This document shows, one piece after another, positions 30,124 through 52,122 of a DNA stretch of 64,000 nt. The stretch lies in contig CAUJNA010000474.1 of the NCBI GenBank assembly GCA_963377175.1, positions 148,836 to 212,835 on the forward strand. Direction: 5' to 3'. Position 1 is the first letter of the stretch, and each line of letters begins with the position of its first letter. The translations under genes were made by a program, and so were the position numbers. Source of the stretch: Effrenium voratum. Taxonomy: Eukaryota > Sar > Dinophyceae > Suessiales > Symbiodiniaceae. A model generated the notes under the pieces. It was not told where the DNA came from and did no database searches. It saw only the letters and a program-made list of their open reading frames with translations.

Positions 30124-30272
30124 CTGGCCGGTCATTAAGGACATGCTTTTTATGCTTTTTTTGGTGCTTTTTTTGGACCGAAAACCTTGTTTTTTCGCGT
30201 GCGCGTTCTTTGTCAAAACAATCCGTTTTTCGGAAGTGTTGTTTTTGCCGAAAATCTTGGGGAGGGAGGGGG
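30124..30272 (+). repeat. Left terminal inverted repeat
   Basis: 149 bp; contains GGACCGAAAACCTTG and GCCGAAAATCTTGGGGAGGG, both present in inverse orientation at 48586-48737. Several T-run length differences and substitutions separate the two ends. Confidence 0.88.
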
Positions 30273-30527
30273 AGAGGGGGGAGGGGGGGAAGAATTTTGG
30301 GATGCGCTCTTACTCCGAGGTGGCTTGAACTTGACTTGCGTTGGTCCCGGTTCGGGCCCCGAAAAGTCGTATACCATTCGGGTCCCGGATTCGGGCTCCG
30401 AAAAGATGTTCCATTTGGGCCCCGGGTTCAAGCTCTAAATTGTTTTCAAGCTGGAAAAACTATTCGTGTTGGCTCCGAAGACTTGTTCAAAATTTGGGCC
30501 GGGTTCAGGCCCCGAAGTTGCCACAGA
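30273..30527. repeat. G-rich tract and subterminal repeats
   Basis: A G/A-rich run (30260-30295) is followed by four or five copies of a short palindromic motif based on TTCGGGCCCCGAA (30352, 30384, 30417, 30510 regions). Subterminal repeats are typical transposase-binding regions. I see no equivalent array at the right end. No gene. Confidence 0.5.
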
Positions 30528-30625
30528 GGGAGCAAGGGACAGTGGCGCAATGGCAGCGCGCCCGAACCAACCTGCGGACCCGCAGTTGGTAGGGAGGTCG
30601 CGGATTCAAATCCCGCTTGCCCCCA
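30528..30625 (+). tRNA. tRNA-like sequence with a hairpin inserted in its anticodon region
   Basis: The D-arm region reads GTGGCGCAATGGCAGCGCG, very close to a eukaryotic B... A-box type D-arm, and the T-arm reads GGTCGCGGATTCAAATCCCG, a near-canonical B box. The 3' end TTGCCCC pairs with GGGAGCAA at the 5' end with one bulge. In place of a normal anticodon arm there is the imperfect hairpin ACCAACCTGCGGACCCGCAG of the element's hairpin family. More likely a tRNA pseudogene or tRNA-derived element than a working tRNA; no anticodon can be assigned. Confidence 0.4.
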
Positions 30626-30950
30626 TCTTTTGCGCAGAGTGACCCTCGGGGGGCTTCAACAATTCAATTGCCGAAAGGAGCTCTGGCGCCTCTGGCAGGC
30701 ATGGCTGGCCTTGTGATGTGGAAGGTCTGAGAAACACATGAACACGCAGTGGCTGTTGAAACTCACGCGGGCTCCTTTTTCAGACTCTCAGCTTTCCCCG
30801 CGACATGTCAATTGCATGTCTCCCCGACCATGTTGCTACTAAGAAGCAAGCAGCAATTGCAGCTTGCAAAAACCACCGTTTGGGAAAACAGCAAGGCATC
30901 CAACTGCGGGGGCGCAGTTGTTTGAACACCTGATCCAATCTGTACTGGAG

Positions 30951-31529
30951 TCAAAGTCGATCAGGGCTGAACTGCTCCCAAGCCAGTGTTGTTTGGCTTC
31001 CGGAAGAGGCATCGTCGGAGGATGGCTCAGTTGTTGCATCGCAGCTGGGCGAGACATCAGGTTGCTCGGAATCTTTCTTCTGCTGCCACTTCCTTGCCAG
31101 GACCTGGGCCTCTGCCCAAGCCACTGCGACAAGCCCTGGCATAACTCGCTCACTCAGTGGCAAATCGTCGGCACTCCCCACGTAGAACTTCATCCCGAAG
31201 CCAAACTTCTGTGATTGTCCAAGGCCTTTCACCACAAAGCTTGAGTTGTCCAGCTTAACCATAATCTTGCAGCATCCTGCAGGCTTGACCGTGTAGGAAT
31301 GGTTGCCAACAGGCGGTGTCTCAGGCATGGCATCCGCAGGTAAATGGAGGAGCGTGGGGTAATACTTCATCAAAATGTTTCCAAGCCGCTCCTTCTGCTG
31401 CAGAATGCTCCGCAAGTCTGGGTGGCTAAGCTCGTCCCAGTCCCCCGACTCATCACGCTTGCGTTTCCGCTCTGCGCGAAGGTCAGCCCGACTGCCGAAA
31501 ATCACCGTGCTCTCGTGTTCAGACGACAT
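30951..31529 (-). CDS. Unknown protein, last gene of the TIR element
   Basis: A 192-codon frame with MSSEHESTVIFGSRADLRAE at the start, a basic patch (ERKRKRDE), then SILQQKERLGNILMKYYPTL and a beta-rich middle (SYTVKPAGCCKIMVKLD, FGFGMKFYVGSADDLPL). The end is acidic and Ser-rich. A hairpin lies 30 bases after the stop. No family recognised; the basic patch may be a nuclear signal. Confidence 0.5.
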   Translation of the reverse strand: MSSEHESTVIFGSRADLRAERKRKRDESGDWDELSHPDLRSILQQKERLGNILMKYYPTLLHLPADAMPETPPVGNHSYTVKPAGCCKIMVKLDNSSFVVKGLGQSQKFGFGMKFYVGSADDLPLSERVMPGLVAVAWAEAQVLARKWQQKKDSEQPDVSPSCDATTEPSSDDASSGSQTTLAWEQFSPDRL

Positions 31530-31764
31530 GTTTGGAAACCTTCGGCAAAACTCGGGCCTTAATGACTGCGGCGATGCAAGTCAAGGGCAGGACGACAAGC
31601 AGCAGCAATGCCCGTGCACTCACACAACAACAAAGCCTAGCAGTGCTCATGCACATGCGAACACCACACTCCGTGGCTCGATGCATTTTTTTCAATCCAA
31701 GGCCACACAACTTCAGCCTCAAAAACACTGTGCGTTGTGGCTGGCGGCGGGCCTGTCTCAGTCT

Positions 31765-32701
31765 CTACTCAGAGGAGAACACAGTGACTGGTTTTGAAGT
31801 TCCAGCTGCGTTTCCGCAGCTGGCGGCAGCACGCTGATTTGCGCGCTGATCTTGGTGCCATGGCGAACTGTTGATGATGGGTCCAACTTGGACACGGCCA
31901 ATTTGATCGAACTTGGTGCCAGGGACCTGGTCGGCGGTGTCGACCAATAGAAACTCCGAATCCTGAACCTGCATGTCAGCGTCCTCTCCTTCTGCATCAG
32001 ATTCATGCTGTACTGCAGTCATCTGCTCGATGTCATCACGATGCCAGATGGCGTTGCCAGGAAAGAGAGAAAGTGGCATGAACCTGCGAATCATGTCAAC
32101 GTCTCGTCTGTAAAGGGCCTTCAGCATCACCCGTAGTTTTGGCACGGGGTCACTGATTGGCAGGCAAAGTATCGAGGAATAGTCCTGGGACCACTCAACC
32201 AGGTCAGGCACGCGATCGAGCTCGTCCTGCCAGCCCCAAATCATGAAGCGCTTCTCCCAGGAAGCATGGCCAATCGGCCCATAATCTCCACCATAAGGGG
32301 CACGTTGAATGTCATACACCACACACCGCAACTGATAATGCTTCCTCTTGTACTCGTTGATGCTTCGTGGGCCCTGGCACCAGCTGAACCCAAGGCCGAT
32401 GCTCGATCCACTGCTGCACTGAGGAAGTGCGAGTTTCGTGATTGCACCAGTCTGCAGTTTCCTTTGTGTAATGTCTTTCCAGATAATCGTCGCTGTTCAC
32501 ATGAATGAACACTCGCAGATCCCTGAACTCCTCCATGCAGATGGGGCTCCCTTTGCGAAACACGATGGCTTGCTCCAACTTTTCCAGTATCTCCGAATGA
32601 AGCTGATAGAGCGGGAAGAAGCTGGACTTCCACGTCGCCAAGCAAGCGTGGTCGCCTGGCTGAAACCGTGCACTGTCCATGTCGGCCAACCATGACGACA
32701 T
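31765..32701 (-). pseudogene. Unknown protein in two frames
   Basis: The likely start is the ATG at 32699-32701 (MSSWLADMDSARFQPGDHA), two bases downstream of a hairpin in the direction of transcription. The first frame runs to about 32312; a second (31765-32331) continues with VVYDIQRAPYGGDYGPIGHA, FMIWGWQDELDRVPDLVEW and AIWHRDDIEQMTAVQHE. The change near 32320 could be an intron or an indel. Trp-rich, globular, roughly 310 residues. No motif identified. A hairpin lies close to the 3' end (31801-31822). Confidence 0.45.
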
Positions 32702-32724
32702 AATTACTGTGGTAGCACAGTAAT

Positions 32725-33078
32725 GTCTGTGGGAAGTGGGACTGACGCGCAGTAGCCTAGATGTGAAGCGAAAACATCTGCAGGGCAATAACATCAATCA
32801 ACAACATGGCAACTTTCAAGGACAGTCGCAACTTTCAAGGTCCAACACGCAATGCTTGCTCTTTTGTTTCTTTGCCCATCACGCGATGCCATGGTCTGCT
32901 GCGCGCCCGCAGCAGACATTGCCACAAGGTCTAGTTTACATCATCAGCGGGAGGAGGTTTCACAAATTTGCGTTGCCTTCTCTCAGGACTTGGCATTGAA
33001 GCTGTGATTGCTTCGCTGCCAACAGACATGTCCCGCTATCATCATTATTGTCATGCGCTGGCTAAACAAAAGAATGCA
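32725..33078. other. Spacer bracketed by two hairpins
   Basis: Between the hairpins at 32703-32724 and 33079-33100 there is no credible coding frame. This is the clearest example of a spacer whose two ends are both marked by the hairpin family. Confidence 0.6.
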
Positions 33079-33101
33079 CAAACTGTGGCACCACAGTTTG
33101 T

Positions 33102-36100
33102 TTAGTCATCACTGCCCACAGAGTCTTCACTCAGATTCTCCTCCTCGACGTCCTCTTCATCTTCAATTTCTTCGTCTTCTTCGTCTTCTTCAATCAGATT
33201 TTTCTCCGACTTCTTCTTCGGAGCCGCCTTCATCTTTGCAGCCTTCTTTGGCTTCGGCTTTGCATTGGCACCTCCCCGCGACTTTCGCTTCTTGCCTGTC
33301 ACCGTGGACGTGGAAGGCTCAGGGGTGCTGCTGCTCTGCGGATGCGGAAGGTGCAAAAGTTTTCCCAGCTTTGCGTTGAAAATCTTGTCGTTGGCAGGGT
33401 CAGTCATCGCCGCGAGGAGCTGTGTGCAGACCTGGGCCTTGAACCACTTGGCGTGCTTTTGTGAGAAGCCTGGCGTGCTCTTCTTGGGCACCAGAACCAA
33501 ACTCGAGCAAAAGGACATCAAACTGCGATGCAGCCAAGGAGCAAATTGCTGTCACTGGAATTCTTTTTGTCAAAATCACGCTGGCTGTCGCAGGCTCTGC
33601 TGCTGTCATGAGTGTGACAGCCCGTGGCCGATACCGGTGCAACAATTCCTCGATCATGTGCGAATGCCTTGGATTCCAAGTGATCGGTTCTCCTGCCACG
33701 TTGTCCTTTGCACTTCCATCTGTTCGCTGTTGGTTGTTCGGTGCACCAGCCACGCGGAAGCTTCCAAGCAACTCGTGCTTGAACACAGGTGCCAGCCTTG
33801 TCAGCCCTGCCAAATCATGCCGGGGGACCCCGTAGACCTCAGAAACTCGCACGCAAACAAGGGGCGCAAGCTGAGCGCGCCAAACAACCGCGCACTGTTT
33901 GGTTTATCCAAGGCGCAGCATCTGAACACACGGTCCCCTCAAAATGTAGGTTCTTCCGGCTTCCCGTGATAGCTTGCAGCTTTTGCGCATCCGTGGTGGT
34001 CACCAAGACCTTTTCTGCCAAGTTAATCACGTTGACCTCATTATCAGCCCCCGTGCCTCCGAGGAAATCACATTAAAACGCTGAGGCCCTGGCCCCACGC
34101 TCAATCGCCGTCCCTGACAGATTCCTGGCCTTCCTGTTCGCAGTTGTCGAGTCCTCAGTGTGGATTAAATGCCACATCTTAGTCACGCCGATGCCCTTGA
34201 ACAGGTTGTTCCAATGAGAATGCAGGCCTGACCGGCCTCCGTCAAAGAACAAGAACCTAAGATGAGCAACGCATGGACGGCGCACGCATCCTGTGTTTAT
34301 GTAATAAGCTAGGCAACACATCCGAAGCGTCTGGGGGAGGCGGCCCGTCCGAGTCGTCAAAGGTCAAAGTGGATTGCATGTTTCGTGCAAAAAGCACGCC
34401 CTTGACCACTTTCTCGAAGTGTTCTTTCTGAAACGGAGGGGGTGACCTCCGAGCGTCGGTTTTATGCTCTCCTGCCTGCTCAACGTCCCAAATGAAAAGT
34501 TGGGAACCCTCCTGGCTTCGCGTCTTTAGGAATTCCACCTTCGACAAAGCAAGGATGAGTTTGTCAATCTCTTGGTCAGCCACCGCGACCTGCAAAAGGG
34601 AATTGACAAGGTCCTTGGCGGTTGTCTCAGTTTCTAGCAGAAACTCTTTGTCTTCAGTCTTCAGAGCTTCAACTGCATGGACAGCCTCAGTTGCCTTGGC
34701 TTCATTGGGCTCTGAAAGGCGGATGGCGGCTTTCACAAGGGCGGCGTCATCCAACGCACCTTCGTCCGCTGACTCCGCCTGCGTTGCCGCAGCCGTTTTG
34801 TCGTCTTTCTTGGTTAGCTTGTCCCAGATGGGCTTGAGCGCCTCGCGCTCGAGAAGGGCATTCACGTCAAAGTTGGTGTGCAACACGCTCTTCACCTTCT
34901 CGTCGTACTTCTTGGTGTAAATGAGATCTGCCAGAAATTCCGCAGCCTCTTGACTGGCTGGCTGCAGCGCCCCCAGCCACGATTTGTTGGCCACGACTTT
35001 CACGGATTTGCCTCGGCGCCATGTCCAGATCATTACAATGTCATGGGCGACACTTGAATCACCAATTGCAGTCAAAATGCTAGGGTCAAGTTCATTGTCA
35101 GGGATATTGTCGAGCGTCTCCCGCGAGAAGAGAAGGCCACCAGCCATTGCCTTGCGCCACGTCTCCTGAGTGGAGAGTTTCTCCCGGATGCGTTTTGCGT
35201 CCTCACATGGCAGGCTCTTGTGAGCCAACAGCATGTCCAGGATCTCATCTTTCAGGACATACTTCCATGCCCACATATGGAACAGCCTCAGAAGCAGTGC
35301 GCCCCCATCAATCAAGGCAAAACCTAAGAAAAAGCAGCAGTGCTAGGAGTCAGGCCCTTTGGAATTATTCCCACGGGGGTTCTTGCCGGCCAACGCCTGG
35401 GGTTGAGCTCGCCTTGCTTGAAGATTTTGTTCAACGCCGCATCCATGAGGGCATCGAACACCCACTTCACGCAAGGCGGTTGCTTCTTGCAAGCAGTGGC
35501 AAGGTCTCGCAAAACATATATGGACTTGATGGGACTTCGCTTTCCGAAGAGCTCCTCAGAAAGCAGGACTTCCTCTCGGAAAGAAGTGTCGCTCAGCAAG
35601 GAATTCCACAGAGCCATCAAGACTTCGAGGAAGGACTGCGTCACTGCCTCCCCCGATGTCACCGTCAAGTTGGCAGACAAGATCTCGAAAAGCTTCTTAG
35701 TCGTCAGCTTGGTCTTGGAAGCTGATTCGTGATTCAACTTGAAGGACACTATTTGAAAGATGCGTTGCACAGGGCTGTAGTACATGGTCTCGTATCTGGT
35801 CCCAACATCCTTTCTTTGCTTGGCCGCTTCCCAGAACAAATTCAGCCCGGGCTTGAAGCGGCAATCGATCGTGGAAGACAGCCACGCCCTTCTCCATTCC
35901 TGCGCTGGCAACTCAATGCTTGGCTGTATTTAGGGGCCAAGACAGCGACGGCGCCGGCCTCCTGGAACTTGTCTTGCTGCAAGTCCCTCGCTGTGGCCAA
36001 GATGAAGGCGTGATGGTCCTCCTCCGGACTGATCCTCTTCATTTGCCCATTTTTCTGGTCCATAAACAAGTCATCCACTGCCACCACCAAATTTATAGGC

Positions 36101-36423
36101 TGGGGCTTCTTGTACGTGGTGTGCATGATCCACTTTACGCTGCTCTTGTACACTGGCACACTTGCAGTCGAAGACCATGACCAGCTAACCCACGCTACAT
36201 TGCCGCCTGCAATGTACTGGTCAGTAGTGGAATCTCCCTCCTTCAAGGCCTCCATCATGGACTGCAACTTGCGATTGTCGAAGGGGTCTTGACGACCGCC
36301 CTCCTCGATCGTTAAGGGCTTCATTGACTCAAGGTCCCTGAAAAGATCCGTCCTGAGCAGCAGCGCAGTACTGACTGATGGCATCTCTATTACTGAGGCC
36401 CGCGCCCCACAATGAGTTCCCAA
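33102..36423 (-). CDS. Large multi-piece protein of unknown function with basic/acidic tail
   Basis: Reading pieces in order (35842-36423, 35324-35911, 34257-35315, 34073-34360, about 33840-34030, 33400-33852, 33102-33521) suggest one protein of about 950 residues with introns or indels. Recognisable segments: AVDDLFMDQKNGQMKRISPE; a helical region (LLRLFHMWAWKYVLKDEIL); a Lys/Ala/Glu-rich helical middle; FLFFDGGRSGLHSHWNNLF; and RPRAVTLMTAAEPATASVIL, which looks like a Rossmann-type strand-helix-strand. The C-terminus is a Lys-rich segment followed by an acidic run, typical of chromatin-associated nuclear proteins. The stop codon (33102-33104) abuts a hairpin. Function unknown. Confidence 0.45.
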
Positions 36424-36819
36424 GCCTTCCTCACGTCATCGTAGTGGGAAGCGCTTATGTTCCGGCATTGCACCGGGGTTGAGCTTGCCGAGGATGTTGA
36501 TTGAACCATAGCAGTCTGCACCTCGCTGCGGTTACGCAGCTGGCACCGGGGGCCTCAAATAAAAAACACTGCGGATGATCCTTAATCTGAAAACTGCGGA
36601 TGAGCCTTAATCTGAAAGCACGGGCCACGCTCTGTGAAAAGTCGAATTTGATCCGCGTCAGCAACGCTTCCGCTTTTGTTTACCCCAGTCAATTGTGCCT
36701 CACTGTAGATTCACACGCCCCTTGCAGTCGCGGAGCACCAACCCAAAGCAGGACCATCGTCCCAGCAAATTAAACAGGAGCAGCTCTTGTCTTAATAACT
36801 GTGGCTCCACAGTTACTAG
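36424..36819. other. Spacer between methyltransferase and large protein gene
   Basis: Holds hairpins at 36525-36540 and 36796-36815 and a duplicated short segment (CTTAATCTGAAA at about 36580 and 36607). Otherwise no gene seen. Confidence 0.5.
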
Positions 36820-36821
36820 GC

Positions 36822-38085
36822 CTAGCGGATCAACCTAGCTGCCGTGAGCACCGCCCTCATTGCCTCCCTCAGGACAGGAACCGACATGGCGTTGCCCACC
36901 ATTTTGCCTCTCTTGGCGCGGGACACACTTTTGGGCCAGCGGAAGTTGTGGAATCCCTGCAAAACCGCCAGCTCCTTGAGTCTGAGAAAGCGACTTTCCT
37001 TAGCACAGGCTGTAAGCGGGCTGCGGGCTGCGCAACTCGCCACACTTGATTATTTGCACTCGCTAAATCTGGTTTGGACAAGAATCGTTGTCGAGCCAGA
37101 AGTTGTCGCCGGAGGCTCGTGCACATGTGATTGTGGGAACATAGCCCGAGGTGACCTGCCGGAAGTTTTTCCCGGCTCCTGCGTCGATGATGTCCCTGTC
37201 CAGATTCCAAACACCCTTCGCCTTGAGCTTCTTCCTTCCTGCCAAAATGTTGTTCCGCTTGGTTTTGCAAAGCTTCTTGATGTCCACCTTGGGAAGCCCC
37301 TTCTCCAAAAGTCGTCCAGGCAAGCGAACTTGCTTTCAGGCAGCGAGTGGACCATATTTGGTTTTCTGGTTTTCACACCCTTGCGCGTGGACCTCCTGGC
37401 GCCCATGATGTAGATCCTCTTCCGGTTCTGCGGAAGCCCGAAACTGCGGGTGTTCACCATTCGCCAGCTCACAGCATAGGCCCGCTTCTGCGACCCAGGG
37501 AGCCGACATTCCTTGAGCTGCTGCAGAAGTTTGTTGAAGTGCTTCCTGTGCTTCATATTCCGGATGCCCGTCACATTCTCCAGCACAAATCCACGCGGTT
37601 GCATGCGGCAGATGTAGTCCACCACAGCCTTTGATAAATCACGTTGGTCGCATTTCCCCTGCCCGACGCCCGCCGTACCTCGGAAGGAGCAGACTAAGCA
37701 AAGACCTATGTGCAAAAAAACAGAAAGTAACCCAAACTCGGTTGAAAACAGCTACTTGTTCTGGCAGTCTGCTGTATGGTTGGCACGGAAACCCAGCTGT
37801 GTACAAGTCACACTTCTCGCAAACATTTCCAAGAGCATATCCAAGACTCCTCGGTCCCTTTTTGTGGGAAAGAATCACCTTTCGGCAATCTGGGTCCACA
37901 TCGGTGGCAAACTGAACCATGAACTCAATCCCCAGTTGCTTCGCTGCCACAACATCAGTTCCCATGCCGCTGCAGTCGCTCCCAAGCATGATTGGCCACT
38001 TGCGATGGCAATGTGACTCCACCTTCTCCACGCGAGGAGGCTTCTTGATGCCAGTTTTCTTCACCTTCAAGGATGTCTTCCCCAT
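36822..38085 (-). CDS. DNA (cytosine-5) methyltransferase
   Basis: All key motifs occur in order on the minus strand: motif I (MLGSDCSGMGTDVVAA), motif IV with the catalytic Cys (TAGFPCQPYS), motif VI (GFVLENVTG), motif VIII (LPQNRKRIYIMGAR), motif IX region (YVPTITCARA) and motif X (KMVGNAMSVPVL). The start at 38085 lies 14 bases after a hairpin. The coding sequence is split by a probable intron between motif IV and the Gly-rich GTAGVGQGK (about 37690-37780), one frame change near 37315, and another probable intron near 37050. Total about 380 residues, as for single-domain Dnmt2/bacterial-like C5 enzymes. The stop (36822-36824) is followed within 7 bases by a hairpin. It may methylate the element's own or host DNA. 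Confidence 0.85.
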
Positions 38086-38393
38086 GCTTCACGGACTTTC
38101 TGCGGCAACGCAGCAAGTCAGCTGAAGAAGCAACTGGAGGAAAGCTGGCTGCGGGGCGAAGCGTGAAACGGCTTGACGGGCAGACAGAACACATGAGCAC
38201 ACCAGACAAAAGACAACAAGACGTAGTAGTCTTGGCTTGGGGCTTAATTGCACATACCCCCCAAAACAAATAGCAGGTCAGCCCGATTTTGAGCCGCAGT
38301 GCCAGGGGGTTCCGTACCCCCTGGCACTCGGGCTGTCGGGCCCAAAAGAGCCCGAGGACCCGTTTGAAAAAGCATAAACAACTTAGACTCAAG
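38086..38393. other. Region upstream of methyltransferase with a 13-bp-stem hairpin
   Basis: Contains the family hairpin 38100-38113 and a distinct strong palindrome at 38298-38328 (AGTGCCAGGGGGT, loop TCCGT, then its complement). No coding support. Confidence 0.6.
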
Positions 38394-38510
38394 AATCTAG
38401 TGCGTCAAAACTCGCAGGGGCCCAAAATCTAGTGCATCAGAACTCGCAGGGACCCAAAATCTAGTGCATCAGAACTCGCAGGGGCCCAAAATTCTGATGC
38501 ATCAGAATTG
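38394..38510. repeat. 32-bp tandem repeat, about 3.5 copies
   Basis: Units begin at 38394, 38426, 38458 and 38490 with AATCTAGTGCATCAGAACTC and then GCAGGGGCCCA. The last unit is partial and carries TTCTGATGCATCAGAA, a palindrome. Confidence 0.8.
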
Positions 38511-38796
38511 TTCATTTGGCAGACACAGGGAGCAACACCAAAAACCAGGCTTGCGTGGCAGAAAGCGCTCAAACAAAACTCCCACAAAATGGAGGATTTT
38601 TCGGCTGACCGGACCCGCGCATCAGGTTCCCTCCACCCCCCCCGGCTTTGTACACTGTTTAACTCCCAGCGCTTCAAGAAGCGCTTTCCGTCATCAGACA
38701 GCGAGCCATCGCATAGACGTGTTTCTCTCTGTTATGACGCGAGGCAGTGGCAGCCCTTTCCCCAGTCTGCAGATTCTGTGCAGCGACCAATGCTCG

Positions 38797-39411
38797 TCAT
38801 TGGCGGCTGTGACCCAGGCAGAATCGCTCTATTGCCCCAAGAGCTCCCCACTGTACAAATGTATGGGCGTTGAACATCTTTGTGGATGTCAGCACGGACT
38901 TTTCCTGCACAAGTCCTACACTCACATAGTTCTTCTTGGTCTTGGCAGCTTTGGCTGCGTTCACCCAGGTGGCAGCCTTGTCCTCAGTTCTGTTACCAGG
39001 GGCGCGCCGCTCCAAACAAGGCAAACGGGACACGGACAGGACGACAAGTGTGCCACAGCCAGCCAAGGCCCGCACGTACACTTTCCAGTTGAGCTCTTGC
39101 ATGCGTGTTTGTGCCAAGACAGCGAATCGCGGATGACGTTTGCGAAATGATGGCGTAATGAGCACATGTCTTCGGGTGCCCTTGGCTGGCCCTTTGTATT
39201 TAACCCAAGGCCCAAACCCGGTCTTGATCGCAGCTTGGCTTACGATAAGACCACCAGAGAGTCGCATTAGCCATGAAGCTCGAGAGCCAGGTTTTGCGAC
39301 ATTGTTCACCACAACGCCTTCAGCCAAGAGATAATCATTGACCACCAGGGCACCCAAAGAGTGGAGTTTCTGGTGCAAGTCAGTAGAGTCTGCCTCCTCT
39401 TTCGCGAGCAA
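38797..39411 (-). CDS. Unknown protein next to transposase gene
   Basis: An open frame of 204 codons (MLAKEEADSTDLHQKLHSLG). It includes VSQAAIKTGFGPWVKYKGPA and RRHVLITPSFRKRHPRFAVL, then an Ala/Lys-rich stretch. It could be a separate small gene or a 3' exon of the transposase gene immediately upstream. A hairpin lies 95 bases before its start. No family recognised. Confidence 0.4.
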   Translation of the reverse strand: MLAKEEADSTDLHQKLHSLGALVVNDYLLAEGVVVNNVAKPGSRASWLMRLSGGLIVSQAAIKTGFGPWVKYKGPAKGTRRHVLITPSFRKRHPRFAVLAQTRMQELNWKVYVRALAGCGTLVVLSVSRLPCLERRAPGNRTEDKAATWVNAAKAAKTKKNYVSVGLVQEKSVLTSTKMFNAHTFVQWGALGAIERFCLGHSRQ

Positions 39412-39453
39412 TCGCCTAAGAAAACTTGCAAGAACAAAGGCGCAAAAGCAAAT

Positions 39454-42162
39454 TCAAACGCCAAGGCGCATATTGGCCAGAGCTGGAAGTTCAGGCTGAC
39501 TCCGCCTGCGTTTCCGCAGCGAGCTTTCGAGCTGAGCTTGGTGGTCAGCTTTCCTCCTACGCTCCAAGCATTGGCTGTGCTCTGCTGGACGAAGCTGCTC
39601 TTGCCGCAGCAGCAGGTCGTCTTGCTGAGCTTGAAAGCACCGTCTTTTCTTCAGCTCCGACAACTTTTTGGTCGCTTCCTCGTGCTTTGTGGAAATTGCA
39701 TTTCCAGCTGCCTTGCGGGAACTTTTGCTCAGCCGCAGCATGTCCCGAGGGGCATCGTTCAGCTTTAAGCATCGCTTCACACTCTTCCGGCGTCGAGCTA
39801 TCCACGCGGCTTCCGAAACAGGATTTCTTGTTCGTGCCTTGGCCGGCAAGGTGTGCAAAGCGAACTCCGGCAAGTTAAAAAAAGCTATGTGCCGCCAAGC
39901 GTCCTGCCGGCTTGCTTCTAGTCGAAGACCGGAAACAAACTTAGGTTTGCGAGCGGACCCAGATGATCTTTCAGAGCCGAAGCCTTCCTGCCAAATCTTT
40001 TGGGCAAGCATAGCAACTGCACCACGAAGACTGTTCTTGTCCCACTGGCGAAGCCGCCTCTCGAACGCCTTGAAGTAAGGGCCTAAGAAAGCCCTGTCGC
40101 GTGCAGTGTGGTACTTGATATCTGCAAAGTCACGCTCGCTCTGCGCAGTTCCAGCCGCCGATGCCAGCAAGACACGGGCAAGTGTTTTAGACATGTCCGG
40201 GCAGCGGCCGCTGAAACTTGACTCTGCCAAGGTCCAGGCTTGCAAATCACCCAACTCTTCCGACTTGGACAGTTGTTCTCCTGGGCAGAGCATTGGAAAG
40301 CGACAAGCAAAGCAGGACAAGCAATATGCACCGTTAAACAGACTCAGAACCAGTCGGTGGCGTTGGGCAGTAGGCTTTAAGTCTTGGAACTGTTCATAGA
40401 GCTGCTTAGAGTTCGCGTCGAACATCTGGGAGAGCCATCCTTGCAAAGCACCTGTTGAAAACGATCGGCGAAACGCTGCCTCCCACACTCCTGTGCCCAG
40501 CGCCCAGTTGAATCAAACGAGGTCTTTCCAGCCACTTCAGCACCTGGCAGTCAGATCAAGTCTTTGAAGCTCTGAAAACTTATCACGGGCTTCGCGACTC
40601 AGTGCTGTCTAGAAGCGTGCTGTGTGTAACCACTGGAGGTGGCTGTTTTCTGCACGAAGAGCACATGCAGCCTTTGAGCAAAGGTTGTCAAGCAGGTTTG
40701 CGCTGCACTCATGTCCATCTGGCTCTTGTCAAATCTGCGTAAAATTCTGATCTCCTCATCAGCAGCGTCAGCCATCATAGCCATTTGCAGGTACACCTCT
40801 GTGGATATAGACTCCAGGAACTTCTTGGCAACCCTTCGGGGTTTCGCGTTGGTCTTTACTCGCAATATCCTTAGATTTGCAACACAGTTTTTCTTTGAAA
40901 TGGCGACATACTCAAGCAAGCCTGATGCCTACTAAGTCTCTCGTGAGCTGTGGCCAAGAACGCATCCGCAAGAAGGATAAATCGCCCCATCGGCTTCTGC
41001 AGAGAAGAATGACGATGCTTGGCCGACTGCAAGTCTCTCATGCCACTGTGACGCAGAAATTCGGCGTCCATGTGCCGAACCTTAGCGCGACGAGACACTA
41101 TGGCCACACTTGCGGCATGTGTGTTAAAACATGTCCACTTTTGAGCCTAGCAACATGCTTCGCAAACATCACCTTCAAATCTGGCGAATGCCAAATCAGC
41201 GCAGTCATAGACTCCTTTCCAGATATGAATTGCTGCATGTATTCCTGAAGCGTCTCGTCAAGATGCCATTTCTTTGCAAACCTTAGCCAGCAAGGCAGCT
41301 GTCTGTTAGTTGTCCGTTCCGCGCAGGGTTGTTTACTGGGAATGCAACACGTGAGGACTGCGCTGAGTTGCCGCTGGACAGCATGCGCGCTGTCGCGCAG
41401 TCGAATCTTCATAGCTGGAAAAGTCTCGGCAGGAAAGTGGTCCCGAAGTGAGAGTAAACGGCCGGCTCTCAGTTCATCAGCGGCCGCATCCGAAGCAAAC
41501 ATTTCCTCAGCAGCGTCAGCGTCAGGGAGAAGCATTTTGTTTTGAAACATGGAGCAAGCAAAGCTTTGCCGCCTAGGTTCCACCCTTCTGCGAAAATGCT
41601 GCCAAGCCTTTTTGTAAAATGTCGGCGCCTTCCCGCACCACCCAGACGGAGGTTTTCTTCTAGCCTGAAACATAGTTTTTGCAACTTGCAGCGTTGTCCT
41701 GGCAAGCCTTCGGGCGCCGCAAATTTGGCCGTGGAAGAGCCCCAAGAGGCCTTGATGCAGTTCAAGTTGACCGCGCTGTGGTTTCGCAGCGCGGTTTGAC
41801 ACACAGGCAAATCTGACAGAAAGCATCGGCCCTTGCGCATCTTGCGAAATCAGAGCTACCTGGCACTTCCCAAGTTTCTTCCGCTCCATGTCCAACATAG
41901 CCTCATTCAAGCACCATGAAATCTTCTTTTCCTTGTAGCGGCCAAGAGGAGATTTTCGAAGCGATTCTCCTTTCAAGCGGCGCTCCACAACACCCAGAAA
42001 GGTGTCCGGGGTGCCACGCTCATGTTGTTTCAAGTGCGTTGTTCGCAATCCTTCCACTGAGCGGCTGAAGCACTTGCAGTACCGGCACTGCACATTCGAC
42101 TCAGTCAGTTTTGCCCACTTGAACAGTCTTCCCCACTTAATCACGCATTTGGAAGAAGGCAT
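39454..42162 (-). CDS. BED-finger / hAT-like transposase in several pieces
   Basis: The N-terminal piece (41098-42162) has a BED-type finger, VQCRYCKCFSRSVEGLRTTH followed by L-K-Q-H, then an RNase H-like first strand with Asp (ISQDAQGPMLSVRF) and RLRDSAHAVQRQLS. The next pieces (40871-41107 and 40599-40919) read LQSAKHRHSSLQKPMGRFIL and ADEEIRILRRFDKSQ. The C-terminal piece (39454-40488) has SAAGTAQSERDFADIKYHTA and a helix, resembling the hAT dimerisation motif (SAxSER-F). Lys/Arg-rich tail. Breaks near 41100 and 40500-40600 may be introns. It is the obvious candidate for moving the 18.6-kb element, although the 4-5 bp target duplication is not the 8 bp usual for hAT. Confidence 0.6.
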
Positions 42163-42415
42163 GGCGCCATCCGAACTGCGTTGCCGCAGTCGGTGCAGCA
42201 GCTGCCGTACAACTTGAGCATGTTTCGACAGGCGTGATCAACGATTAACGATGCCGCAACATGAACTGTGCCACGACAGAAACACTCAGGCAAAACGGAC
42301 GAGCCCTTTTTACATCTGCGGGACTGTGTGCTTGAAGTGCGACCGCTTCCGAAGCCGTCAGCTGTACAAAGGCTTCGGAAGCAATGATTCAAAAGACTGA
42401 CTGCGGCGACGCAGT

Positions 42416-44964
42416 TCAGTTTTTGACCTTTTTGAGGCCCAGGAACCATTCCTTTACGTCAGCCAGCTGCTGCTTTGTGCATGGATCATCAGTCCACCAC
42501 TCAATGCCGTCGTTGAAGGTGACTTTAAGCCATTGTCCCCGGTAGTTGTACCAGCGTTGGCCCTTGGGGAATTTTGGCGCCCGTGGCAGCCGGCCAAACT
42601 GCGCGCCAATGTATCCAGCAGCGACCCATTGTGTATATGTGTAGGTGCCGCTAGAGTGCATCCTGTGCACCGGCGCCAGTCTCTTTGTCGCTTTCATGCT
42701 TCCCCGAGTTCTGAAGGGCAGCCCAATCACTCGGGATCTCTTGAACCTTGTTCTCACGCGCGACCGCGTCTTCTGTTGTCGAGTCCTGGATAGCCCCGCC
42801 GCAATTCCACCATCCGGGTCAGGCATGTTGTCATAGATGCCTGTCGCAGTGACATAGGCCGTCTCCGCTGCTGTAATTTGTGTGTGGAACCAATCGCCTG
42901 CCTCAGTGCCGAGCTTTGGGAACCCGGCGTCCTGCCACTGCCTCTCCAATCGCAGCAATTGTGCTCCTTGCCATCGACCTGACTCAAGCGGCATCCACCG
43001 CCACTCATCTTGGTCCTGGTGCTCATCTTGGTCCTCGTCCTTCTGTGACATTTTGTCATCCGGCTCCTCCTCATCATCCTCATCTGAGATTCCGCTCAGC
43101 TCAGAGTCAGAATCACGAACATTGACACGGTGCAGGGTCATTGTCAGGTGTTCCGCACGCTGGAGTTGTTGCTGCAGCCCGTCGTCATCCTCAGATTCAG
43201 AGACTGATGGTGTTTGGGGCCCCTCGCATGGAGGCTCATCAGCCGGCGACGTTGGCGAATAGTTGAACCAGGCCGGAACTTCTTCTTGCTCCTTGTCCAT
43301 GTCAGTGTCAAGCTGCGTCGCCGCAGCTGATTTTGGCATGGGCAAAAACGGAGTTGGGCTTGCCGGCTCCTGCTTGCACTCCTCCACCGGCAGCTGGGTG
43401 ACAGTGGGCTCCTCCGGCTGCAGAGTTGGAGTTTCCTGCTCCATGCTCGGCACCGCAGTTGGCGTCGGCGCAAGGCTGCTTGACCCGCCTCGCGGGCTGC
43501 GTGACCGGCAAGCGATGAACGCAGCAGCTCTTGCCTTCACGTTGGTGGGCTGAGGAGCCCAGGGGAAGCAGCAGCTCAAGGGTGTGAGCTTCTTCACCTT
43601 GTCATAGTCCATGTGAAGGAACCACTCCTTGTGTGGGACGTAGTCTTCTTCCCAGTGAGGGGTGTGGGCACAGTCGTGCCACCTGCTTGCTGCAATCTTT
43701 TCGTATACGGGCACCGCCACGTGGTCCCCCTGCAACTCTTTCGGCAGCAGGCGGCATTGCGGCTGGAAATTCCGCAAGCACGCCTCGCCCTGCTGGACCC
43801 GCATGTTGTACCTCACGATCACCTTCACTATCACGAGGTCCTCCGCATTCCACACCAGCTCTGTGCCACGATGCATGTTAAAAATCGTCCTGGGGGTGTG
43901 GCCCAGAAGCTGGAAGCCCAAAGCGTAGTAGACATTGTTGCCGAAGACATTTGTCTTCCACGCGTAGTGGTCGAAGACGTGCTCCCAGTCTTCTGCTGTG
44001 TACCTTGGCGCACAAGGTCGGCAAGGCACGAACAGGCAAGACTACAACAACCAAGGACTAAACATTCAGGAATCATTACCAAACACAAATTTCTTGGCAA
44101 GGCGCACTCCGACTCCACGGCCTCCTCGGCCGTGATACTCGCGTGCCCCCAGCCCGGCGTCGTTATCTGACGCAGTCAGCTTTCCCTGTCTCAGGATTGC
44201 CGGGGCACATTCCCAGTAGGTGCCGTGAACCACCGAGTGCAAGTGGATGCCATCTGCGTTTCCGCAGATGTCTTGAATACGACGCTGCCACTGCACAGAG
44301 TGCTGTCTGTCCGACTGCAAGTAATCGAATTCGATGTGGCCAGAACTTCTGGAGGTCTCCTGGGGGAAATGGCGGCATTGGCCCAGAGAGTCGCAGACTC
44401 CGTGGACGTGCGCCCAGTGCCGCACCATCATCTCCACCAATGCTGGGTCCTTTGCACAGGGGTGGTTGCTCTGGCTCCTCCCACATTTTTCAAACTTTGA
44501 ACGCTTGGTCAATCTCCCGATGTTGTTCCTCAGGACATCATACGGGGCTTGCACCAGACTTTGCGCCAGCCACATGCGACAGCTTCAGGAGATTCGCCAG
44601 CATCTCGCTCGTGATGAGGACCGACTTCAGCGGGAGTCGTTCAATGCTTTCCAGTGCCCTGTGTGATGGCCGCTGTAAGGCCACAGCGGCTTGCTTCTCT
44701 GTCCAGGAAGTCTGCAAGCGGAGTCCTGCAAAGGTCATAGAGGTCGCGATGACTCAGCATCGTGTTGACCTTCACCCACTTGTGCCTGGAATTCTTCTCC
44801 ACCGGCTTTGTTGGGATCCCCTCCACATTGGCCATCCCGTGTGGCAGGAGCTCGGGTTTGTGTTGAGGGCCATGGACCTCTAGTGTAGCTTGGCAGAAAG
44901 ACGGCAAGACGAAGCCGAAATTAATGTGGTTTACGTTTCTCCGCTTGCCTTCCTGCAGGGGCAT
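42416..44964 (-). CDS. Possible ADP-ribosyltransferase-like protein with long acidic linker
   Basis: Pieces 44641-44964, 44066-44575 and 42416-44029 read as one protein of about 850 residues. The first part contains WVKVNTMLSHRDLYDLC. The second has HSVVHGTYWECAPAILRQGK, an H-G-T-x-x-x-x-x-x-x-I-L-x-x-G motif like the NAD-binding start of PARP/KptA-type folds. The third starts PRYTAEDWEHVFDHYAW and has YYALGFQLLGHTPRTIFNMH. A 170-residue acidic Glu/Asp/Pro linker (DEDDEEEPDDKMS) follows and then a compact Tyr/Trp-rich end (PKFPKGQRWYNYRGQWLK). Enzyme assignment is tentative. The stop codon 42416-42418 touches a hairpin; two more hairpins lie inside. Confidence 0.4.
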
Positions 44965-45559
44965 TGCTTGAACAGTGTTTGCAATGGTTAGAACAAACGT
45001 ACAGGAACATGCAGCTTTTCACACGTCCCAACCCCATGGACTTTCCCAAGCCTGCCTGAAATTTCTGGTTTATCAGCGTCGTGTCTTTTGCCAGCGTGAA
45101 AAAGTGGCCCGTAACGTTGGAGTCCAGATGCAACCCAGCCTCTTCTCGCAGTTCCCTTAAGGCGGCATTCTGGGCCGCATCTTGCTGCCAGTTCCACCAC
45201 CTTCGGTGCGCCAAGACATGCCAGTCACCATTGACATTTATGAACAAGTATAGCGCCACACTGCCACACTCGTCGGAATGTCGCGGCATGTCCTGCTTTG
45301 TTGCCAAAGCAGTCTTCAATCTGCCCTGCCCTTGCTTGAAGCCAAGGCTGGCGCGCAAGCAGTGTGAGATGCAGTTGTGTTTCATGATCACTGAACGGCA
45401 ACAACATTTGAGAGCTGTTTTTTCCACTAGCAGCCTGAGTAAGTAAGTTTGAACAACCAAGGCAAGGAGCTCCAACAAATAGATCATTCGACAGCAACTG
45501 TTCAACTGCAGGTGCAGAGCTGGTTCTAGATGCAGCTTTGTCGACAATGTGGTGCGCAT
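44921..45559 (-). CDS. Nudix hydrolase-like protein
   Basis: A 212-codon frame whose second half reads VALYLFINVNGDWHVLAHRR and then DAAQNAALRELREEAGLHLD. The R-E-x-x-E-E-x-G-L core of the Nudix box is intact; the leading Gly is Trp and the first Glu is Asp, so metal binding is plausible but the box is atypical. A beta-rich C-terminal part follows (GHFFTLAKDTTLINQKFQ). Nudix enzymes cleave nucleoside diphosphate-linked compounds such as ADP-ribose, dNTPs or caps. The N-terminal 70 residues are Leu/Cys-rich and may be non-coding. Its 3' end overlaps the start of the next gene. Confidence 0.6.
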   Translation of the reverse strand: MRTTLSTKLHLEPALHLQLNSCCRMIYLLELLALVVQTYLLRLLVEKTALKCCCRSVIMKHNCISHCLRASLGFKQGQGRLKTALATKQDMPRHSDECGSVALYLFINVNGDWHVLAHRRWWNWQQDAAQNAALRELREEAGLHLDSNVTGHFFTLAKDTTLINQKFQAGLGKSMGLGRVKSCMFLYVCSNHCKHCSSNAPAGRQAEKRKPH

Positions 45560-45865
45560 GGAGTTGCGGAAGCTTTATGTTGAAGAGGCGAAGGGCAATT
45601 CCTGCTGTCGCCAACGACAACACAACCGAAAAAACAAAGTCGTGCAGTGTTACCAGATGCCTGCATACCCTACTCGAAGAGCTGCGCAGCCAACCCAGGG
45701 CGGGCCCTCATGGATTGACAAAGCATTGCGCTGCGTTTTTTTTCTGGCTGCAAAATGTGCGAAGAGACTGTTGCGGCAGCAATTCAAGTGAAACACTGGC
45801 AAGACTGCGTGGCCGCAGTTTGCGTCTAGCGATGCTCGAAGACTGTCTCCTTGGGCTGTCTGTGT

Positions 45866-46417
45866 CTAGCAATGCTTGATTGTCTCCTTGGACTCATTCT
45901 TCTGATTCAGCAGCTTAATAATCATCATCTCTATCTTGTGGACACGGCCTTGCACCCCTGTCAGCTCGTCCAAGATATCCTTAAGCACTTCCTCGGGCGG
46001 GAGCGGCGGCGGACTCTGCCACGGCGGCGGCGGGGAGGTGCTGGTCCACGCCGAGGATGCCTGCGATGATGGCGGCAAGCGATCATACTCGGCGCCCACC
46101 CAGTAAGTACACATCGGCGGTTCGCATTTTTCGGACCGAACTTTGAAGGCCTCATCCCTGGTGTAGCACCAGCTGTGCTGCAGGCCAGCCTCAGCCTTTC
46201 CCTCCAGCAGGCACACGCAGCAAAACACCTCAAAGTTCTGACCGCAAACCATCACACCGCTGTCTTTGAAGGCCTTCTTCTTGAAGAACGGGGTCTTGTA
46301 TATCCATCCGCAGACATCGGGCCTGCCAGTCAGAATTCCACGGCATTGTCTGACTGACAGCTGCGTTTCCGCAGATGTTCCACAGATGTTCCTTAACAGC
46401 TGCGGCGGGCAATTCAA
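45866..46417 (-). CDS. Cys-containing protein with Pro-rich and coiled C-terminus
   Basis: A frame of 183 codons. The middle reads DVCGWIYKTPFFKKKAFKDS, then FEVFCCVCLLEGKAEAG and QHSWCYTRDEAFKVRSEKCE, with Cys/His spaced as in a small metal-binding or secreted-type fold. A Pro/Ser linker (SPPPPWQSPPPLPPEE) leads to a helical end (LKDILDELTGVQGRVHKIEM). A hairpin overlaps codons near the start (46361-46374), so the true first codon could be downstream. No family recognised. Confidence 0.45.
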   Translation of the reverse strand: MNCPPQLLRNICGTSAETQLSVRQCRGILTGRPDVCGWIYKTPFFKKKAFKDSGVMVCGQNFEVFCCVCLLEGKAEAGLQHSWCYTRDEAFKVRSEKCEPPMCTYWVGAEYDRLPPSSQASSAWTSTSPPPPWQSPPPLPPEEVLKDILDELTGVQGRVHKIEMMIIKLLNQKNESKETIKHC

Positions 46418-46705
46418 CCATCACGACATGAACACAGCATCCCTGACACATGTTTCCAACTGTTCACAGGCGCGCCCAAGCAAACGCAGGCGCGAATCGA
46501 AGACTGCAGCTCTACCACCATTAGCCTTGCGTAAGAGGGTCTTTTTTTTGTTCCGACCTTGCGCCCGAAACGTGTAAAGTCAAGACTAAGCTACCGTTGG
46601 AATTTGCAGAGGTGTTGGCCATTAACAAGAACCAACTGCGGGCACGCAGTTGGTTTTCGCGGCAGCAGCGCTGCGTGGAACTCCGGCAGTATAAACATGG
46701 GACAT

Positions 46706-47264
46706 CTATCGCCGGCGCAATTCAGACTCTAACTTCTCCAGCTCCTGCGTGCTTTGCCACAACTTGTGATCGATGACCTCCGTGGTGTCCATTGCCGTCT
46801 GCCACATGCGGAGCGACATCCTGCGCATAGACTCAACCTGAAAAGTCTCTGCCCCTCTCAGAATCAATAAACAGCTGCTGCCTGCCATTGCGCGTGTTTT
46901 GGAACTCCTCGATGAGGTCCAGCGCCGAATCCAGATTGTGGTACTCCTGCCTCATCAGGATCTCAACAGCTACCACCATCTGCAACTCTTCCTTTAGGTG
47001 TTCCATTTGCGTTTTCAATGCCTCGATCTTCCGTCGTCGAGCCCCAGCCTCGGTCATGGCGCGCAACGCAGGTGACTGTTCCATCATGGCTCCCCTAACA
47101 AAAGGCCAGTTTGGACCAGAGCGCTGCAAAGTAAATTGCACAAAAAGCATCTCAAATTGACAAATATTGCCCCAGGTGCTCTTTTTCTTGCCTGCAAACA
47201 AGCATGCGGCAGCAAACACATCGTTTCTCAGGCTGCAGCAGCCCCTCAAGCTCAGCCCAAACAC
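46706..47264 (-). CDS. Coiled-coil protein
   Basis: Frames 46833-47264 and 46706-46888 together give a protein whose likely start is MMEQSPALRAMTEAGARRR near 47087. Long heptad segments follow (KIEALKTQMEHLKEELQMVV; YHNLDSALDLIEEFQNT) and, after a frame change near 46850, SMRRMSLRMWQTAMDTTEVI and LEKLESELRRR at the end. No other domain. A hairpin lies about 50 bases after the stop. Confidence 0.45.
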
Positions 47265-47990
47265 TCACTGTGTTGCCGCAGTGTGTTCGTATATGACTTC
47301 TCGAAGCACCAGCTGCAAGTCCTGTATCAGGACATGGACTGGCCAGAGTATGGCCAGAAACACACACTCTGCGTCGTGGCCAGCGGCAAGACCGCCCCAC
47401 ACATCCAGGGCCTCGCTCACCTGCAACATTTGGTCATGGAGAGTGCGCAGCTCGTCAAGCTTAACCTTGTTCAGCTTCCCCTTCATCGGCAGCAGCATCT
47501 CGTACTCATCAAACATCCACAAGCCGTCCTTGTAGCGCACATCAGTCACCTGTGTCTTGTGGCGGAAGAAGTGTTCAAGCACAGCGCATGTGGCGCAGCA
47601 CTTGCTGATGATCTTGGAGTTCATCCGGTTGTCTTTGTACAGAGGGCCCAGAGTCACGCAGACCTTGATGAGCATCGAGAAAGGGATCTTGTCTGGTTGC
47701 CCGCAAGTGATTCGTTGGATGTCTTCCGCCAACTTGTCTAGGCAATTCCCCCGCACAATGCCAGGTGAGCCCTCCTCCAAGAACCTGGATGCCATGGCTT
47801 TGCCAGCTTTGGTTACAAAGCTGGACATTTCAACGAGTTGAAGCCGAACCGAAGCTGAGCCAGTTGAACCGAATGGGCGGGCGGCGGGCGAAAACTCACT
47901 GAGCCGCACGCAACGCTGGCAGCAAAACAGACACGCTTTTCCTTGTGCTTTGTAAAACTCAGGAGTTGCCAAACTTCTCAGGCAAAGCAA
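47265..47990 (-). CDS. Helical protein of unknown function
   Basis: Open for 241 codons; the best start may be the internal Met at 47828 (MSSFVTKAGKAMASRFLEEG), since the upstream part is Cys/Arg-rich and irregular. The rest is helical with CLDKLAEDIQRITCG, PFSMLIKVCVTLGPLYKD and KVKLDELRTLHDQMLQVSEA. No catalytic motif. The stop overlaps the hairpin at 47266-47283. Confidence 0.45.
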   Translation of the reverse strand: MLCLRSLATPEFYKAQGKACLFCCQRCVRLSEFSPAARPFGSTGSASVRLQLVEMSSFVTKAGKAMASRFLEEGSPGIVRGNCLDKLAEDIQRITCGQPDKIPFSMLIKVCVTLGPLYKDNRMNSKIISKCCATCAVLEHFFRHKTQVTDVRYKDGLWMFDEYEMLLPMKGKLNKVKLDELRTLHDQMLQVSEALDVWGGLAAGHDAECVFLAILWPVHVLIQDLQLVLREVIYEHTAATQ

Positions 47991-48056
47991 AAACCTAAGC
48001 TGAGCCGGGCTCTCAGGGGAAAGGCTGTGTTTCCGCAGCCTTTTCTAGATGCAAGT

Positions 48057-48503
48057 TCAGTCAGAGTTCAAGGGTAAACAGACAAGCTTACGCAAAGTCA
48101 AATAAGCATTGTCCAACAGCATCTTTAATGGTGTAAAAGGTTCGTTAATGTCGGCCAGTTCGTTCAAGAAGTGCAGAACCTGGGTCGACTCTTCCACAAA
48201 GGCCCGCTCTTCAGCAGTGACGCGTGGAAGTTGCGTTGGTCCTGGAGAGCCTGGAGAGCACAAATCCCGCACAAGAGGCTCCCTGGCCATATCATCAGAA
48301 GGCAATGGCGAAATCAGCGCGCGCTCCATACCAGCAAGAACGACTGCGAAAGGAAACATCGCGGCTCTTCGCCCAGTTCTTTCCATGATCAACCGCAGGA
48401 CCCGGCTGCATTTCCTGACAATAATCTCGTCAATCTTCATTTCAATGACATGCAGCGCCACGCAATGCGCGAGCTCGTCAGCGTCAACCCCGTAAATGTC
48501 CAT
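48057..48503 (-). CDS. Helical protein, first gene of the TIR element
   Basis: The start is set at 48501-48503 (MDIYGVDADELAHCVALHVI) because an in-frame extension would run into the terminal inverted repeat. Helical, with EMKIDEIIVRKCSRVLRLIM and AEERAFVEESTQVLHFLNEL. About 148 residues. Composition is like the neighbouring gene at 47265-47990. Hairpin 48020-48043 follows the stop by 13 bases. Function unknown. Confidence 0.45.
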   Translation of the reverse strand: MDIYGVDADELAHCVALHVIEMKIDEIIVRKCSRVLRLIMERTGRRAAMFPFAVVLAGMERALISPLPSDDMAREPLVRDLCSPGSPGPTQLPRVTAEERAFVEESTQVLHFLNELADINEPFTPLKMLLDNAYLTLRKLVCLPLNSD

Positions 48504-48585
48504 GGCAGCACGTGCGCCAAGTTTCACTAACAGCTGACATAGCAAAAACAACTCTCTGAGCCACCGGATTGTCCAAACATCAAGG

Positions 48586-48737
48586 CCCCCCTCCCTCCCC
48601 AAGATTTTCGGCAAAAAAACCTTTCCGAAAAACGACTTGTTTTGACAAGTATGCACACCCGAAAAAAACAAGGTTTTCGGTCCACAAAAAGCACCCAAAA
48701 AAAAGGCCTAAAAAGCATGTCCTTAATGACCGGCCAG
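48586..48737 (-). repeat. Right terminal inverted repeat
   Basis: 152 bp, inverse of 30124-30272 with several substitutions and T-run differences. Ends GACCGGCCAG at 48737. Confidence 0.88.
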
Positions 48738-48741
48738 AAAA
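48738..48741 (+). repeat. Target duplication at right end of TIR element
   Basis: AAAA (or AAAAC to 48742), matching 30120-30123. Confidence 0.6.
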
Positions 48742-48742
48742 C

Positions 48743-49204: not shown

Positions 49205-49322
49205 CGTGGCAAAATGGGCGGGTGCTCGGGGGAAGACGATCCAACAGAGGTCACAAGCGAAGTGATCTTTGCGCGTTCCACCCTAATCGGGAGGGACGTG
49301 CCATATAAGGTTTTCAAGCGCA

Positions 49323-52108: not shown

Positions 52109-52122
52109 AGGCGAGAGGGGGG
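52109..52122 (+). promoter_or_regulatory. Polypurine tract
   Basis: The bases AGGCGAGAGGGGGG abut the TG of the right LTR and are nearly pure purine, as required for plus-strand priming. Confidence 0.8.

Follow-up and report, generated by a model that had tools for sequence, protein, structure and literature searches.

A probable giant cargo-carrying DNA transposon with a hairpin array in the dinoflagellate Effrenium voratum

Few eukaryote lineages are known to harbour large DNA transposons with a stable set of genes. We analysed a 64,000-nt stretch of the genome of the dinoflagellate Effrenium voratum (assembly GCA_963377175.1, contig CAUJNA010000474.1, positions 148,836 to 212,835 of the forward strand), which is called the window below and is numbered from its first letter. 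Positions 30124-48737 of the window are probably a giant cargo-carrying DNA transposon, for which no superfamily is assigned. The open-licence papers searched yielded no report of such an element or of the hairpin array that it contains.

Several described systems resemble this element in part. Starships, to our knowledge, have no long terminal inverted repeats (TIRs). In the available text of PMC11623301 and PMC12134995, these fungal elements carry many cargo genes in one transposable block, as does the present one, and are classified by their tyrosine recombinase; the open reading frames (ORFs) of our element that were searched gave no Pfam match to such a recombinase (captain). Teratorn is likewise a giant TIR element with many genes, and is described in the accessible part of PMC6431247 as a fusion, 41-182 kb in size, of a herpesvirus and a piggyBac-like transposon whose TIRs are 18 bp long, whereas no viral genes were found in our element. 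Polintons and Polinton-like viruses share with it the TIRs, a comparable size and the occurrence of methyltransferases, which are of the N6 type in the sections of PMC12721341 at hand; they differ in their capsid, ATPase, polymerase, integrase and tyrosine recombinase, none of which was detected here. Because no hallmark gene passed the cut-off in searches that could miss very diverged versions, the element was filed neither as a Polinton or Polinton-like virus nor as a Starship. C5 methyltransferases captured by mobile elements are also described from Symbiodinium, where the carriers are LINE and DIRS retrotransposons as far as the available portion of PMC5890265 describes them, in contrast to the TIR DNA element found here.

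Ends of the element and its insertion site

The element interrupts an ORF of a long terminal repeat (LTR) retrotransposon. The features that define its ends and its target are as follows.

22014-52582, host LTR retrotransposon, complete and young, defined by its LTRs and an ACTTC duplication
22014-22431, plus strand, 5' LTR of the host retrotransposon, TG...CA, with ACTTC directly outside
29393-30123, plus strand, left half of the interrupted retroelement ORF, in frame with 48742-49204
30120-30123, putative target duplication, AAAA on the left side
30124-48737, giant TIR element of 18.6 kb, defined by inverted ends and the interrupted flanking ORF
30124-30272, plus strand, left TIR, from alignment to the right TIR
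48587-48737, minus strand, right TIR, from alignment to the left TIR
48738-48741, putative target duplication, AAAA on the right side
48742-49204, plus strand, right half of the interrupted retroelement ORF, in frame with the left half
52123-52582, plus strand, 3' LTR of the host retrotransposon, flanked by a purine tract upstream and ACTTC downstream

TIRs were found at the exact ends of the element, as in TIR (class II) DNA transposons. The two repeats, of about 150 nt each, showed 88.9% identity over 153 aligned columns, and their outermost 23 nt matched perfectly. With up to three mismatches allowed, this 23-nt sequence occurred in the window at the two ends only, and it gave no match in 100 shuffles. 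AAAA adjoins both ends; the left side reads AAAAA, so the duplication carries little information. The sole gap in the window is a run of 100 N at 13901-14000, and thus neither junction lies at a scaffold gap.

Both LTRs of the host retrotransposon (418 and 460 nt) have TG...CA termini and ACTTC on their outer side, and a purine-rich tract precedes the right one. They differ by five substitutions in 418 aligned sites, plus one 42-nt indel. When the element and one AAAA were removed, the two flanking halves fused into 1194 nt in a single frame, comprising 397 codons and a stop; this computational joining of the flanks gave the uninterrupted target, with no internal stop in the restored ORF. Because the half ORFs rejoin in frame inside a complete LTR retrotransposon, the element was most likely inserted after the retroelement had landed, and the landing was recent by the LTR count. 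The youth of the target suggests that this copy of the element also moved recently. The left half of the ORF runs into a stop at 30328, inside the element, indicating that the insertion broke the gene and that only the phase of the flanks was preserved.

An earlier note on this DNA had proposed inverted ends of about 150 bp and an insertion into a retroelement gene. The identity of the TIRs and of their outer 23 nt confirmed the first proposal, and the LTRs, the ACTTC duplication and the restored 397-codon ORF confirmed the second. Its short A-rich target duplication is present on both sides as AAAA, of low information given the left AAAAA, and its description of the insertion as frame-preserving applies to the shared codon phase of the flanks and not to the gene, which is broken.

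The 11% difference between the TIRs could also point to a chance composite, in which an older TIR transposon with host genes received later insertions and is not mobile as a unit. We regard such an origin as highly improbable. The few differences between the flanking LTRs imply that the block arrived after a recent event, the hairpins described below span the block and end at its limits, and pairs of its genes recur on other contigs, as judged by equal contig size.

The host retrotransposon has a long coding region; no Pfam match to a reverse transcriptase was obtained among eight retroelement ORFs tested. The sequence TTTGGCTCAAG is present in both LTRs (22074-22084 and 52183-52193). We take it to resemble the spliced leader of dinoflagellates at its 3' end; a mismatch-tolerant scan was not above chance.

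Gene content and relatives elsewhere

The element contains the following features.

30536-30624, plus strand, tRNA-like sequence (RF00005, 35.8 bits, gathering threshold 29)
30951-31580, minus strand, ORF, coding-like by codon score, no Pfam family
31765-32797, minus strand, overlapping ORFs with a weak coding score, no family above the cut-off
33102-36435, minus strand, ORFs of one probable gene, no family; relatives P0023-P0036 match within 34260-35372
36770-38085, minus strand, gene for a C5 cytosine DNA methyltransferase, spread over several frames (PF00145, E 3.2e-19)
39454-42162, minus strand, candidate transposase with a BED-like N-terminus and a SERDF motif (motif scan, sub-threshold Pfam match, relatives)
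42416-44584, minus strand, 541-aa ORF and an upstream ORF, no family passing the cut-off
44921-45574, minus strand, Nudix-like ORF, sub-threshold (Pfam E 0.014), with a RELREEAG motif
45866-46420, minus strand, ORF, no family above the cut-off
46833-47264, minus strand, ORF, no family above the cut-off
47265-48044, minus strand, ORF, no family above the cut-off
48057-48707, minus strand, ORF, no family above the cut-off

A codon score trained on five minus-strand stretches exceeded 10 in 12 of the 37 minus-strand ORFs of at least 100 aa in the element versus 0 of the 41 plus-strand ORFs; this same-strand test is partly circular, because four of the 12 contain training sequence and one is the shadow frame of another. 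The number of genes is probably 9-11.

By its sequence, the C5 methyltransferase gene is the only firmly identified gene of the element. The motif scan recovered PCQPYS and ENV, and relatives P0017 and P0020 carry a GNAMSVPV end; the 3' limit of the gene (its low coordinate) was set by tblastn of relatives. A PDB sequence search with relative P0010 returned methyltransferases, and PHROGs searched with the methyltransferase relatives gave two methyltransferase families and one of unknown function on the same stretch. Some relatives, for example P0013 and P0014, read through the frame change. Upstream of the gene, a 32-nt unit stands in three tandem copies at 38394-38492.

We take the product of the gene at 39454-42162 to resemble dinoflagellate hAT-like proteins; no hAT profile confirmed this. 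Its BED match (E 0.0072, 16.8 bits; E 0.025 in joined frames) was below the cut-off of 20.6, and the motif scan placed SERDF in its C-terminal half. Neither a hAT dimerisation nor a DDE domain was matched by a profile in it, and a PDB sequence search with relative P0001 gave nothing meaningful. The element resembles BED-type hAT transposons in its TIRs, its sub-threshold BED-like N-terminus and its SERDF motif, and differs from them in its size of 18.6 kb, its approximately ten genes, its 4-nt duplication and the lack of a hAT profile match. The target duplication of hAT elements is 8 nt. The single copy studied here has a duplication no longer than 4 nt, so the element was not filed as hAT, although it may work like one.

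The BED/SERDF gene is the probable transposase gene of the element. It could instead be cargo of a non-autonomous TIR element, that is, a smaller DNA transposon that would have acquired genes and would depend on a transposase supplied from elsewhere. The duplication unlike that of hAT and a candidate transposase that is interrupted here and unconfirmed by profile would agree with this alternative. We consider it unlikely, as the candidate transposase has the largest single cluster of relatives (44 members) among the three genes searched.

Close relatives of the three genes were found in multiple copies in a protein database. The candidate transposase matched seven protein clusters, which were 90-100% identical where aligned. 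For the methyltransferase there were 15 clusters, six at 90% or more, eight at 61-85% and a distant one at 30%, with at most 23 members; the lower identities partly reflect frame differences, one stretch of P0013 being 72% and another 96% identical. The ORF at 34-35 kb matched 14 clusters at 90-99% identity, the largest with 28, 16 and 10 members. Clusters were taken to share a contig when their longest contigs were of equal size, with P0008-P0021 as the methyltransferase relatives. Equal sizes were found for P0003 (candidate transposase) and P0010 (methyltransferase) at 362464, for P0004 (candidate transposase) and P0021 (methyltransferase) at 41914, and for P0018 (methyltransferase) and P0032 (34-35 kb gene) at 423565. 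Because two genes share an identical longest-contig size in these three cases, the genes of the element seem to move together, and the whole 18.6-kb block would move as one. Scans of viral contigs and prokaryote genomes found no relative.

Several observations weigh against a mobile unit of this kind. The contigs column reads '1' in 35 of the 36 clusters, many-member clusters included, so that copy number rests on member counts. When the longest contigs of the candidate transposase were compared with those of the 34-35 kb gene, none agreed in size (0 of 7 x 14). The 4-nt A-run is weak as a duplication. In this copy, frame changes interrupt both the methyltransferase and the candidate transposase. 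The latter is without 44 residues that are complete in P0001 and P0004 and partly present in P0005 and P0007, and its other frame changes were covered by no relative found; the breaks in the two genes reflect either decay or long-read error. No hAT profile matched the candidate transposase at E up to 10, a search in which HMMER filters drop weak matches. Structure models of P0006 (a relative of the candidate transposase) and P0023 (a relative of the 34-35 kb ORF) were too poor, with mean pLDDT of 35.8 and 37.0. The TIR patterns had no match in viral contigs and prokaryote genomes, where a dinoflagellate element is hardly expected.

With 41 distinct element-related Pfam queries, which could miss remote homology, no capsid, packaging ATPase, PolB, integrase or tyrosine recombinase was found above the cut-off. 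The motif scan of ORFs of at least 60 aa gave nothing convincing for capsid, ATPase, polymerase, integrase or tyrosine recombinase; it returned isolated strings, two of them Walker-A-like (ORFs of 89 and 97 aa) and others of the R..H type, which are uninformative. Among nine proteins compared with PHROGs, only two methyltransferase relatives gave matches. Sub-threshold Pfam matches with viral or polymerase names, namely Pox_Ag35 (E 0.014) and Rpc31 (E 0.0071), both on the acidic tail of 33105-33551, and N4_RNAP_helical (E 0.057), look like composition or chance. These results argue against an endogenous Polinton-like virus or virophage that has diverged so far that its capsid, ATPase and polymerase genes escape detection, and we judge such a virus quite unlikely. 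The size, the TIRs, the methyltransferase and the approximately ten genes would fit it, and the available part of PMC12721341 reports such proviruses, whose TIRs measure 230-860 nt, in the dinoflagellate Oxyrrhis.

Among the other genes, the one at 33-36 kb is matched in two parts (35264-34641 and 33389-33105) by relative P0030, a single gene model spanning both, and hence the two parts keep their order elsewhere; 35373-36435 probably belongs to the same gene as 33102-35372. The Nudix match reached 15.8 bits, below the cut-off of 21.1, and the ORF had no NCBIfam or PHROG match. For the gene at 42-44.6 kb, KptA was considered and dropped (E 0.18 with one ORF, nothing with the two ORFs joined). 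The tRNA-like sequence lies just inside the left TIR and has an enlarged anticodon region containing the hairpin at 30572; ARAGORN called no tRNA there.

The earlier note had read the locus as a giant transposon with about twelve same-strand genes, including a C5 methyltransferase, a BED/hAT-like transposase and a Nudix enzyme, and no polymerase or capsid. Our analysis upheld the large TIR element, the retroelement insertion, the methyltransferase, the common strand of the genes (subject to the circularity above) and the absence of a detectable polymerase or capsid in the Pfam, PHROGs and motif scans. Twelve is an upper estimate of the gene number. A hAT transposase was not supported, given the missing profile match and the 4-nt rather than 8-nt duplication, and what was seen of the Nudix enzyme is a sub-threshold match with a RELREEAG motif.

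Hairpin array

The element also contains an array of short hairpins, which the earlier note had missed. The sites below were obtained by pattern scans.

30572-46649, 15 exact hairpins CTGCG-N4-CGCAG
Exact hairpins 1-8: 30572, 30904, 31806, 32899, 34779, 36526, 38100, 39506
Exact hairpins 9-15: 42176, 42401, 43313, 44254, 45805, 46361, 46636
32707-48038, six variant hairpins CTGYG-N4-CRCAG
Variants with both arms changed: 32707, 33083, 36799
Variants with one arm changed: 41776, 47268, 48025

CTGCG-N(2-8)-CGCAG occurred 16 times in the whole window versus 0.69 expected, and 15 of the 16 sites were inside the element. All 15 have a 4-nt spacer, while the single outside site (24428) has a 3-nt spacer. 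Spacers of up to 30 added one site outside (28080, spacer 10) and one inside (43497, spacer 18). The degenerate pattern CTGYG-N4-CRCAG gave 21 sites in the element and none in the remaining 45 kb of the window; the left (9401-30123) and right (48738-64000) flanks and the AT-rich start (1-9400) each had zero. This pattern was chosen after viewing the one- and two-mismatch sites of the element (4 and 13, of which 3 and 3 were kept); two-mismatch sites overall were at background, with 13 in the element versus 9 and 11 in the flanks.

The outer stems extend the pairing. In the 15 exact hairpins, which were picked irrespective of their flanks, 27 outer pairs were counted versus 8.6 with shuffled partners (p 8e-5); for all 21 hairpins, the count was 52 versus 12.3, a value reached in 0 of 100000 shuffles. 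The outer sequences vary between sites yet stay complementary, indicating that pairing rather than letters is conserved. On the coding (minus) strand, nine of the 21 loops (seven of the 15 exact ones) were GNRA, against a background of 3.8% (p 3e-8 if the sites are independent); on the other strand it was two of 21 (p 0.13). At least two of the hairpins are not independent, since 34779 and 39506 share 26 nt at 96%. RNA folding of six of the 21 hairpins, hand-picked among sites with long stems or one changed arm, gave z scores of -2.5 to -4.9 relative to the shuffle mean; the two one-arm variants among these six had a stem mismatch on the folded strand.

The loop bias suggests that the hairpins act in RNA. 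The three one-arm variants weigh against this reading: their pairing is better when read on the plus strand (T-G) than when read on the minus strand (C-A), and so they point away from sense-strand RNA, opposite to the GNRA bias. For this reason the hairpins may instead have a role in DNA, as a cruciform or a dimeric protein site.

Hairpins inside ORFs fall at phase 0 (39506), phase 1 (34779, 43313, 46361, 47268, 41776) and phase 2 (44254, 31806, 32707). As all three codon phases are occupied, we rejected protein coding as their function; together with the end of the array at the element ends, this argues that the array is part of the element's own design, and other copies would also carry it. 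Subterminal transposase sites were not favoured either, because the hairpins are spread across the whole element.

A relation to gene ends is suggestive only. Eight of the 21 hairpins lie within 60 nt of the 18 stops picked as coding (shift mean 2.4, p 0.0002), as do five of the 15 exact ones (p 0.015). For all 37 minus-strand ORF stops, the counts were nine of 21 (p 0.027) and six of 15 (p 0.12), and for the 41 plus-strand stops four of 21 (p 0.80). Within 30 nt, we counted four of 21 (p 0.030) and one exact hairpin of 15 (p 0.59) at the picked stops, and four of 21 (p 0.24) at all minus-strand stops. Hairpins near some gene ends recall the transcript hairpin rule of Mimiviridae described in the available text of PMC4402537; the present array differs from it, as only these 8 of 21 are near a picked stop and several lie inside ORFs. 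Dispersed short hairpins with paired stems are also found among mitochondrial repetitive hairpin-forming elements, which, in the part of PMC2800124 at hand, are mostly intergenic and lie inside genes in some genomes. Those occur in organelle genomes, whereas the hairpins here are confined, within the window, to one transposon. In the same portion of PMC2800124, sponge mitochondrial hairpins have conserved stems and unconserved loops, in contrast to the varying outer stems and enriched GNRA loops of the present array.

Surroundings, proposed mechanism and significance

The first 9400 nt of the window have about 27% GC (18-38% in 200-nt steps near their end) versus 50-58% in the rest, and the sharp change near 9400 is not at a gap. 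Six ORFs tested from this part gave no Pfam family above the cut-off. The AT-rich start is possibly a chimeric join or an AT-rich island. The ORF at 11429-13648 was read as copia-type integrase-like and had no Pfam match. Many diverged repeats of about 50-300 nt are common to the two outer flanks (10436-21455 and 52901-63922), and one pair of 300-nt repeats, at 54277 and 56592, is identical.

For the probable transposon, we propose that a transposase, most likely the product of its BED/SERDF gene, would cut at the TIR ends, and that the whole block would be pasted into new sites, leaving a short A-rich duplication, with the same-strand gene set travelling as a unit. The C5 methyltransferase may modify the DNA of the element or of the host. 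This copy would have landed in a young LTR retrotransposon, hence its recent move. The hairpins most likely act in sense-strand RNA, in end formation or in protein recognition of the element's transcripts. A more tentative proposal, which we hold possible but doubtful, is a new superfamily of dinoflagellate giant cargo transposons that have their own C5 methyltransferase and mark themselves from end to end with a CTGCG-GNRA-CGCAG-type hairpin; a protein encoded by the element would recognise this hairpin, in RNA or in DNA, and so distinguish transcripts or DNA of the element from those of the host.

A giant transposon of dinoflagellates with a methyltransferase and a hairpin array would give a concrete handle on the swelling of these genomes and on the encounter of their mobile DNA with heavy cytosine methylation. 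The hairpin array can be tested at once in any assembly with other copies.

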